64,000 nt of DNA from assembly GCF_913777995.1 (NCBI RefSeq), contig NZ_CAJYVE010000008.1, forward strand, positions 38,726 to 102,725, read 5' to 3'. Each line of letters starts with the position of its first letter. The stretch's first letter is position 1. The position numbers and the translations under genes are program-made. The stretch comes from an uncultured Pseudomonas sp. (GTDB lineage: Bacteria > Pseudomonadota > Gammaproteobacteria > Pseudomonadales > Pseudomonadaceae). Shown piece by piece: positions 61,227 through 64,000 of the stretch. A model generated the notes under the pieces. That model had not been told where the DNA came from. It worked only from the letters and a program-made list of their open reading frames with translations, and did no database searches.

Positions 61227-61913
61227 TTACCAAGGAATGGACGCGCCTTTGTAGTCGATGAAGTGATGGCCGCCCTTGCCGGCGTAGGCTTGCAACTGCT
61301 CGAACAACCCGGTGGTGCTAGTCAGTACGTCGATCTCGGCATTTTCGCCACCCATGTCGGTCTTCACCCAGCCCGGGTGCAGCGACAGAACGGTCGGGCG
61401 TGGCTCGGGCAGCTGGCCGACGAAGGTGTTGGTCATCGAGTTCAGGGCAGCCTTGCTGGCCTTGTACAGGGCCAGCGTGTCGCCGTCGGGGCAGGCCACG
61501 CTGCCCAATACGGAACTCATGAAGGCGATCACACCGGTGCCGGGGCGAACCTGGTGCACCAGGTGTTCAGCCAGGCGAATCGGCGCGACGGCATTGGTGA
61601 GGAACAACTGGCCCAGCTCGGCGGCGGTGGACTGGGCGGCGCTCTGGTGCTGCGGGCCGATGACGCCGGCATTGACGAACAGCACGTCGAAGGTTTCGCC
61701 TTTGAGCTTCTGGACCAACACCTGCAGCGAGGCATTGTCGTCGATATCCAGGGTTTCGATACGCACGCCTTCGATCGCCTTCAAAGCGTCGGCCTTGAGC
61801 GGATCGCGAACCGTGGCGGTGACTTTCCAGTGCTGTTCAGTCAGGCGCTGGACCAATCCCAGGCCGAGCCCGCGAGAAGCGCCGATGATCAGCGCGGTTT
61901 TTTCGGCAGACAT
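61227..61913 (-). CDS. Short-chain dehydrogenase/reductase
   Basis: 228 aa. GASRGLGLGLVQRL cofactor loop, NAGVIGP, catalytic Ser in FMSSVLGS, YKASK with Tyr/Lys, and HPGWVKTDMGG. C-factor-like (CsgA-type) SDR; substrate unknown. Monocistronic. Confidence 0.9.
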   Translation of the reverse strand: MSAEKTALIIGASRGLGLGLVQRLTEQHWKVTATVRDPLKADALKAIEGVRIETLDIDDNASLQVLVQKLKGETFDVLFVNAGVIGPQHQSAAQSTAAELGQLFLTNAVAPIRLAEHLVHQVRPGTGVIAFMSSVLGSVACPDGDTLALYKASKAALNSMTNTFVGQLPEPRPTVLSLHPGWVKTDMGGENAEIDVLTSTTGLFEQLQAYAGKGGHHFIDYKGASIPW

Positions 61914-62031
61914 GGAAAACTCCTTTTCTTGGGTGGCGATGACATCAGGGCCCGCAGCCTACTCCAGGCTTGGGTCTGTGGATACTTTGTTCTGAACACG
62001 GGGCGTCCCAGGAGTGCAGTCCGATTGCGCT
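61914..62031. other. Upstream spacer of the SDR gene
   Basis: Holds the SDR promoter region; CTTTTCTTGGG just upstream of the ATG carries AAGGAG on the minus strand. No further feature seen. Confidence 0.4.
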
Positions 62032-62142
62032 GGTCAGTAAATGATCAATCGTCGGGGAAGGCGGCAGTTATGCGGGGTGGCGCAAGGCGTTCACCTGTTA
62101 TCCACAGGCTGCTCCACAAATATTGTGAGCAACCGCTGGCGT
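62032..62142. repeat. Unit A of a diverged duplicated element with a DnaA box
   Basis: In order: GGTCAgtAAATGATCA at 62032, a perfect DnaA box TTATCCACA at 62098-62106, and TATTGTGAGCAAC at 62121-62133. The same order, with spacing changed by 1-2 bp, recurs 202 bp further on. Confidence 0.6.
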
Positions 62143-62151
62143 AGGGCGAAT

Positions 62152-62175
62152 GGCACTGGCTCTCTCTCCAGTGCC
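62152..62175. other. Perfect hairpin between the two repeat units
   Basis: GGCACTGG, loop CTCTCTCT, CCAGTGCC: an 8-bp stem without a following U-tract. Confidence 0.5.
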
Positions 62176-62234
62176 TCGTCGTGATTGCCCAAGCGCTTGT
62201 TTTCAGCCTGTTTTTCTGTCTTTGCCAGGCGGTT

Positions 62235-62341
62235 GGTCAAAACATGATCACTGGCGCGCAGAGCCCGGCAGGCAAGGCTTGCAGCCCGGTGTGCTCAGCT
62301 TATCCACAACCCGGCCCACAATAGATGTGAGCAACTGCAGG
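62235..62341. repeat. Unit B of the duplicated element with a DnaA box
   Basis: GGTCAAAACATGATCA at 62235, perfect DnaA box TTATCCACA at 62300-62308, ATAGATGTGAGCAAC at 62321-62335. Only these signal-like islands are conserved with unit A; the DNA between them differs. Confidence 0.6.
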
Positions 62342-62342
62342 G

Positions 62343-62939
62343 TCACGCCTGCTGCGTCGCCTCTTCCAGAATGATGCGACCGCGACTGAGGTCGGCCAGC
62401 TGACGCTGCAGTGCCTCGACTTGCTCAGGCACCACGGCAATGGACATCTGCACGCCATTGGCGGTGAAGTCTTCATGTTCGACCAGGCCCTGTGCTTCTG
62501 AGATTCGCAGCTTGACCAGAGCCAGTTCACTGAAGCTGCACTCCAGCCTGAAGGGCTGGCGGTTCACCAGTGGCAGGCGCGGGGCCTGCTGCAGGCATTT
62601 ATTGGCACCACCGCCATAGGCGCGGGCCAGCCCACCGGTGCCCAGCTGGATGCCGCCGTACCAGCGGATCACCAGTACCACCACCTGATCGAAATCCTGG
62701 GCTTCGATGGCCGCGAGGATCGGCCGACCTGCGGTGCCGCCGGGTTCGCCGTCGTCGTTGCTGCGATACTGGCTGCCCAGCTTCCATGCCCAGCAGTTAT
62801 GTGTGGCGTTCAGGTCGCTGTGCTGTTCGATGAAGGCTTGCGCATCGGCCGGGCTGGCGATGGGACCTGCCAGGGTGATGAAGCGGCTTTTGCGAATTTC
62901 TTCGCGAAATTCACAGAAGCCGGTGAGGGTAGAAGGCAT
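62343..62939 (-). CDS. IMPACT/YigZ-family protein
   Basis: 198 aa. N-terminal UPF0029 domain with KSRFITLAGPIASPADAQAFIEQH, HNCWAW, DDGEPGGTAGRPIL and VLVIRWYGGIQLGTGGLARAYG; a C-terminal DUF1949-like ferredoxin fold follows. Relatives influence translation or proline peptidase-like functions; the bacterial role is unsettled. Confidence 0.92.
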   Translation of the reverse strand: MPSTLTGFCEFREEIRKSRFITLAGPIASPADAQAFIEQHSDLNATHNCWAWKLGSQYRSNDDGEPGGTAGRPILAAIEAQDFDQVVVLVIRWYGGIQLGTGGLARAYGGGANKCLQQAPRLPLVNRQPFRLECSFSELALVKLRISEAQGLVEHEDFTANGVQMSIAVVPEQVEALQRQLADLSRGRIILEEATQQA

Positions 62940-63847: not shown

Positions 63848-63902
63848 TTAATTTCAGTTTTTTGAAATTAACAGTTGACGGCCTTTCAGATGTCCTTATA
63901 AT
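63848..63902 (+). promoter_or_regulatory. Very strong sigma70-type promoter with UP-like dyad
   Basis: TTGACG (63875-63880), 16-bp spacer, perfect TATAAT (63897-63902), then the GC-rich discriminator GCGCACC seen at stringently controlled stable-RNA promoters. Just upstream, an AT-rich 9-bp inverted repeat TTAATTTCA/TGAAATTAA (63848-63871) sits where an UP element or factor site would lie. Confidence 0.75.
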
Positions 63903-63904
63903 GC

Positions 63905-63994
63905 GCACCACTTCCAACGCGGAATGCACCGAAAACTCCTTGAGAATCAACGAGTTAAGGTGAGGCGAAAGAAGTGGTGCGAATCTTCGGATTC
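63905..63994 (+). other. Structured 5' leader of an RNA continuing past the window
   Basis: GCACCACTTC (63905-63914) pairs with GAAGTGGTGC (63971-63980), enclosing an AACTC/GAGTT hairpin; a GAATC-TTCG-GATTC hairpin with a UUCG tetraloop follows at 63981-63994. No start codon with a good ribosome site is seen. Likely leader of a stable-RNA operon or an sRNA, but the body is outside the window. Confidence 0.4.
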
Positions 63995-64000
63995 CGGCGG

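Follow-up and report, generated by a model that had tools for sequence, protein, structure and literature searches.

The window, i.e. the whole stretch of 64,000 nucleotides that was analysed, carries two non-coding units of ca. 100 bp, 202 bp apart, between yigZ (IMPACT family; 62343..62939, minus strand), whose stop codon lies just past unit 2, and a gene encoding an SDR oxidoreductase (PRK08177; 61227..61913, minus strand) on the opposite flank; both genes serve as context here, and the family scores of yigZ are below the curated cut-offs. Each unit consists of a 15-mer matching the Fis consensus, ca. 51 bp of intervening DNA, and three DnaA boxes arranged as plus strand, 3 bp, plus strand, 5 bp, and minus strand. 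The two perfect DnaA boxes (TTATCCACA) claimed in the earlier note were indeed found on the plus strand at 62098..62106 and 62300..62308, 202 bp apart, and both occupy the box III position. In unit 1, the perfect box is preceded by a predicted Fis site (GGTCAGTAAATGATC, 62032..62046) and a GC-rich dyad position (62054..62082), and is followed by boxes at the box II position (TGCTCCACA, 62110..62118, plus strand, 7/9) and the box I position (TTGCTCACA on the minus strand, 62124..62132, 6/9). Unit 2 likewise has a predicted Fis site (GGTCAAAACATGATC, 62235..62249), a dyad position (62256..62284), and boxes at the box II position (CGGCCCACA, 62312..62320, plus strand) and the box I position (TTGCTCACA on the minus strand, 62326..62334, 6/9). 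GTGAGCAAC was found at an equal distance after both perfect boxes, the two 42-nt stretches being 74% identical, and GTGAGCAA, also downstream of both perfect boxes, is part of the weaker inverted DnaA box TGTGAGCAA. Between the units lie a perfect hairpin (8-bp stem and 8-nt loop; 62152..62175), which was unconserved and was excluded from the element, and an IHF-like site (CAAGCGCTTGTTT, 62190..62202, plus strand; 7/9 to TAAnnnnTTGATW) at +92 from the first box of unit 1. The order of elements at the yigZ locus is thus Fis, core, IHF-like, Fis, and core. The middle DnaA box, the weak inverted box with GTGAGCAA, the Fis consensus, the IHF-like site, and the other loci described below were unremarked in the earlier note.

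Four perfect TTATCCACA boxes were present in the window, as compared to a mean of 0.08 and a maximum of 1 in 100 shuffles. When 398 genomes were searched for TTATCCACA followed by TGTGAGCAAC with the gap left free (8–30 bp), 17 places were obtained in 16 genomes, including the host, and every gap was 17 bp; the same pattern read backwards gave no place in the 398 genomes. When the 429-bp intergenic region was used as a BLAST query, 25 of 95 relatives gave matches, and all 25 belong to the host's genus. For the unit alignment, 62 of 91 references were used; the 29 left out were mostly backwards cores or weak matches, and they include apparently genuine units (L016, L017, L028, L030, L035, L037, and L043) that were dropped for thinning. 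The 62 units were scored against TTATCCACA on both strands at offsets from -100 to +100, which gave the box II and box I positions. The best offsets were 0 (plus strand, 8.95/9), 26 (minus strand, 6.39), and 12 (plus strand, 5.56), the mean over all offsets being 2.20 (sd 0.76). Since the units had been chosen by their first and third boxes alone, the middle box at offset 12 is independent of that choice. Box II is weak in Pseudomonas (consensus nSnYCCACA), and the perfect box sits at III. The motif set also lies far above chance, as the reading in the earlier note requires: a matrix made from the 62 units gave 588 matches in the fetched loci, as against 0 once these were reversed (3.04 Mb, both strands), a control that measures specificity, and since these loci partly overlap and were mostly fetched for such matches, 588 does not represent a genome-wide rate.

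The GGTCA...ATGATC signals pointed out in the earlier note are present at both units (62032-62046 and 62235-62249), and the TGATCA within them is better read as a Fis site on the basis of an offset scan of the 62 units. Both 15-mers fit GnnYAnnnnnTRnnC, which is given as the Fis consensus in PMC8682772. Matches to this consensus peaked at offset -65, where 37 of the 62 units were perfect and 53 had five or six of the six positions, and the central five bases of the site were 95% AT as compared to 47% overall. A second Fis-like offset was seen at -9 (mean 4.95/6, 10 perfect). Among the proteins of the host genome are a homologue of Fis, with 59% identity, and a second PF00308 protein, which was taken to be Hda. 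When 28 non-redundant loci with 202-bp spacing were scanned with TAAnnnnTTGATW, the best place was +92, at which 25 of the 28 reached 7/9; matches of at least 8/9 anywhere were found in 12 of the 28 loci versus 1 of 28 shuffled. A different thinning left 32 non-redundant 202-bp loci, of which 27 scored 7-8/9 at +92 (host, 7) and none scored 9/9. Two other offsets of the scan with high scores, +1 and -10 on the minus strand, coincide in part with the first DnaA box, and the reversed motif gave no peak at +92. The +92 place did not stand out at units with spacings of 145-194 bp (88 units) or 340-380 bp (7) or at single units (44). In 12 loci inspected, the usual form of the site was YAAnnnnYTGTTT. 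Since this form departs from the E. coli consensus, IHF is a likely, yet unproven, occupant of the +92 place.

The host genome (4.76 Mb, 54 contigs, 92% complete) gave 21 matches at E ≤10, among which ten were strong units (E ≤3.5e-7) at four loci: yigZ and, judged by eye, an etfB-like gene, livF-like and SDR-like genes, and rarD. A weak fifth locus (C35) had an E value of 3.5e-4, and the start of a nearby gene matches by eye that beside the single unit at -13% in G036. All 17 one-contig genomes of the same genus that were examined carry 5-12 units (E ≤1e-5). Among the matches listed (to ca. E 2e-8), these units form 73 clusters, as counted by hand with rounded chromosome sizes, and 67 of them lie at 5-18% of the chromosome from dnaA, relative to which all positions are given. 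G003, G012, G014, and G041 each have one listed cluster outside this range, and G029 has two. Clusters were usually on both arms, and on one arm only in G014, G029, and G041 among the matches listed. The units do not correspond to a chromosomal origin beside dnaA, as 72 of the 73 listed clusters are separated from it by at least 5% of the chromosome, the remaining one, in G012, being at 24 kb. Seven of the 17 genomes (G005, G010, G019, G034, G036, G046, and G049) share a common pattern, with one unit at ca. -13 to -15%, one or two at ca. -9%, and four at ca. -8 to -9% on the minus side, and two units at ca. +10% and two at ca. +12%, the latter being the yigZ locus, on the plus side. The unit loci are chromosomal, outside genes, and outside oriC, and their gene neighbourhoods vary. 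In G041 (L271 3130-4214), seven units stand in a row near genes that look by eye like urease accessory genes, with spacings alternating between ca. 158-167 and 203-204 bp. As for perfect DnaA boxes in the host genome, 22 of the 62 listed were on the 132-kb dnaA contig (G000 contig 13, which includes L145), a density ca. 19 times that elsewhere among the matches listed, and the backward control gave 8 genome-wide; this count is a subset, as the pattern demands a non-T base 27 bases on. DnaA boxes are enriched near oriC in E. coli (PMC12371093).

The boxes beside yigZ are kept in many but not all relatives. Two units lie downstream of yigZ in 12 of the 17 genomes, and in the other five (G012, G014, G017, G032, and G041) none is found there and the units lie elsewhere. 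Among 103 yigZ loci, which were mostly fetched for carrying units, 100 have two units, 73 of them 202 bp apart, and the reversed control gave 0 of 103. In the 28 non-redundant 202-bp yigZ loci, the two cores had 1.69 and 1.66 bits per column and the two Fis sites 1.26 and 1.38, as compared to 0.68 for the stretch between, in which the IHF-like site is included.

Neighbouring units are helically phased. The spacings of 265 distinct neighbouring pairs peaked at 150, 161, 172, 182-183, 192-193, 202, and 213 bp. The claim rests on the 140-220 bp range (225 pairs), where R was 0.78 at 10.5 bp and at best 0.80 at 10.3 bp; the range of 140-199 bp, which leaves out the 202 class, gave similar values (127 pairs; 0.75 at 10.5 bp, best 0.77 at 10.8 bp). 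The weighted R of all 265 pairs was 0.60 at 10.5 bp (best 0.67 at 10.15 bp), and that of the 105-199 bp range was 0.55 at 10.5 bp, this range favouring 5.35 bp. When the distinct spacings were pooled, the periodicity was weak (0.17 at 10.5 bp and 0.27 at 10.75 bp). Since related genomes make the pairs non-independent, no probability is given for the phasing.

Beyond the genus, searches at E 1e-6 gave matches in 32 of 116 genomes (25 of 78 genera) of the order and in 22 of 140 genomes (21 of 137 genera) of the class, host included in both, and across the class each matching genome has one to a few copies. Among 43 loci from these searches (L127-L143 and L293-L318, the same-family L125-L126 being left out), 40 have a core scoring at least 20/27, as compared to 0 of 43 reversed; L142, L143, and L318 score 19/27, and L300 reaches 20 only elsewhere, without box III. 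Of the 43 loci, 34 matched the Fis consensus perfectly at -66 to -64 and 28 have a perfect box II, none of the latter being L128, L135, L313, or L318, which belong to the host's genus or family. Units that keep this spacing of Fis site and core, most of them with a perfect central box, are present in further families and orders of the class. Since the model was trained on Pseudomonas, the layout beyond the genus is partly selected; the perfect central box is not in the model. The E. coli neighbours rppH, mutH, ygdQ, part of ptsP, bioC, bioD, orn, and queG gave no match beside the 43 loci; uvrB matches strongly at L317 and weakly at L300, and yigZ matches at L128. The class-wide units L293, L297, L303, and L311 adjoin genes with PriA-like starts, as judged by eye.

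The DARS core is defined by three DnaA boxes at fixed spacing, with I and II head to head and III behind II (PMC8682772, PMC10380432), and the Pseudomonas units have this arrangement, with boxes III, II, and I as 9-3-9-5-9. In E. coli MG1655, DARS1 (bioD-uvrB) reads TAATACACA-3-TTATCCACA-5-AGTGGATAA and DARS2 (rppH-mutH) reads TCTTACACC-3-TTATCCACA-5-CTGGGATAA when reverse-complemented, both with the same spacing and orientations as the units. DARS1, which is intergenic as the units are, tops the 9-3-9-5-9 template ranking in its own 4-kb piece (24/27), but it is a single core, unlike the yigZ locus. The DARS2 core (20/27) ranks second in its own 4-kb piece behind a 22/27 match 316 bp away (L048 1636-1670), a second 9-3-9-5-9 set in the same orientation as the core, which parallels the yigZ locus, although 316 bp is larger than the 202 bp of the yigZ units. 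This second box set is perhaps near DnaA box V. Two IHF-like sites 3 bp apart, with one mismatch each, lie between the core and the second match (L048 1729-1757), and the yigZ locus shows a DARS2-like order of core, IHF-like site, and predicted Fis site. The activity of DARS2 involves IHF and Fis (PMC4245941, PMC8682772). There are also differences: both E. coli sites have the perfect box at II, whereas the Pseudomonas units have it at III with a weak box II, and neither of these sites has a Fis consensus at -66/-65 before box III. DARS2 lies ca. 20% and DARS1 ca. 33% from oriC, given the assumed oriC position, and the Pseudomonas loci are mostly nearer (5-18%). Neither oriC nor datA can be the source of the layout, judging from their template scores: the host oriC region (2.5 kb) has perfect DnaA boxes as the units do, but its best template score was 18/27 and its match to the model was weak (10.7 bits), and the best score in the 4-kb piece of E. 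coli datA was 19/27.

Taken together, the computed features, namely the layout of the boxes, the match to the Fis consensus, the IHF-like site, and the conservation, positions, and phasing of the units, suggest a reading that we hold with moderate confidence, namely that the units are Fis-linked DARS-like sites that would reload ADP-DnaA, because they join a three-box head-to-head core to a predicted Fis site and, at the yigZ locus, an IHF-like site. Of the roles listed in the earlier note (titrating or reactivating DnaA, a pair of RNAs, or promoters), reactivation fits the box geometry of the DARS core, and the RNA and promoter options found no support. The protein binding, nucleotide exchange, and effect on initiation that we infer would proceed as follows. 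DnaA would occupy the outer perfect box and fill the two weaker head-to-head boxes, as at DARS boxes II and I, and Fis would bind on the box III side at a fixed distance from the core. At the yigZ locus, IHF would probably bend the inter-unit DNA, so that the second Fis site and core are drawn towards the first core. DnaA would then lose ADP and be reloaded with ATP, raising the capacity for initiation. In Pseudomonas, units of this kind are lined up in helical phase at several origin-near loci, which are doubled early in replication. Since the units have the DARS layout and are found again at a small number of places near the origin in related genomes, they probably help to time chromosome replication. 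Several features count against a DARS-like role: the perfect box at III, the predicted Fis site with no E. coli counterpart, the IHF-like site at one class of loci, and origin-near positions like that of datA, together with the five of 17 genomes in which yigZ-side units are absent and the weak periodicity of the pooled spacings.

A datA-like site or a plain sink, in which the units gather DnaA after fork passage and either speed ATP hydrolysis or hold DnaA, thereby lowering initiation, is possible because the central box is weak and the position is origin-near, but we consider it rather unlikely. Like the units, datA has DnaA boxes near the origin but outside oriC and uses IHF, which would suit the IHF-like site at the yigZ locus, and it lies ca. 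10% from oriC, a distance resembled by that of most Pseudomonas clusters from dnaA. Early doubling of origin-near loci would suit a sink, and the perfect DnaA boxes of the host are dense round oriC, as seen from the listed boxes on the dnaA contig. However, datA, whose key boxes 2 and 3 are spaced from an IHF site (PMC4585315), lacks the 9-3-9-5-9 layout, one box of its best match scoring 4/9, and a sink would work without a head-to-head pair, a fixed Fis distance, or helical phasing. The IHF scan made us very slightly more confident of DARS-like reactivation and hardly less so of a datA-like or titrating role.

A promoter regulated by DnaA and Fis, or a pair of regulatory RNAs, appears highly improbable. 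The region is non-coding, and Fis and DnaA regulate transcription elsewhere; however, no sigma-70 promoter or terminator pattern was found at 61800-62450, Rfam gave no match at gathering score in the whole window, gene neighbourhoods differ between units, and the units here lie behind the 3' end of yigZ. Nor did the hairpin, which the earlier note placed correctly between the units, prove to be conserved: stems at yigZ loci averaged 4.7 bp versus 4.4 bp when shuffled, and an 8-bp stem was found in 1 of 54 non-redundant loci. A GC-rich dyad (CTGnARGCCnnG-n5-CnnGGCYTnCAG), seen in the consensus of 322 non-redundant units at -44 to -16 from the first box, between the Fis site and the core, is conserved in sequence without covariation; at the 28 yigZ loci it had 1.10 bits in unit 2 and was poorly conserved in unit 1 (0.54 bits). 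Its mean pairing excess in 275 units was 0.018, as compared to -0.023 to 0.012 for slid versions. A hairpin RNA or cruciform was rejected, as the dyad pairs no better than column composition predicts and the window hairpin is unconserved. The dyad may be where another dimeric protein binds. A dispersed repeat or mobile element with no cellular role, although several copies occur per genome, can be dismissed almost entirely, as the copies are few (one to a few across the class), recur in part in the same places across genomes, have fixed spacing, and are conserved only at the binding sites.

Returning to DARS-like reactivation, a wider proposal, which we put forward tentatively and think somewhat less than probable, is that Gammaproteobacteria have long had a Fis-linked DARS module as a control site, from which DARS1 and DARS2 of E. 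coli would have diverged, and that Pseudomonas amplified it into helically phased arrays, placed on both arms at four or five loci near the origin, an early-replicating set jointly setting the level of ATP-DnaA. Among the titles and abstract openings of the open-access (PMC) literature, no DARS in Pseudomonas was found. The Pseudomonas cores may have been noticed earlier, since PMC10380432 cites a paper, taken to be Fujimitsu 2009, for the conservation of DARS-like sequences in many proteobacteria. The DARS2 core is described as specific to species related to E. coli (PMC4245941), and the high-affinity DnaA box of P. putida is TTATCCACA (PMC4285127). A compact module of one predicted Fis site and one core at a fixed distance would offer a minimal system for studying DnaA recharging, and since the arrays occupy defined loci on the two arms, the effects of position and dosage could be tested directly in a laboratory strain. 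Apart from the units, a strong promoter-like stretch at the end of the window (63860-64000) resembles by eye the start of an rRNA operon.
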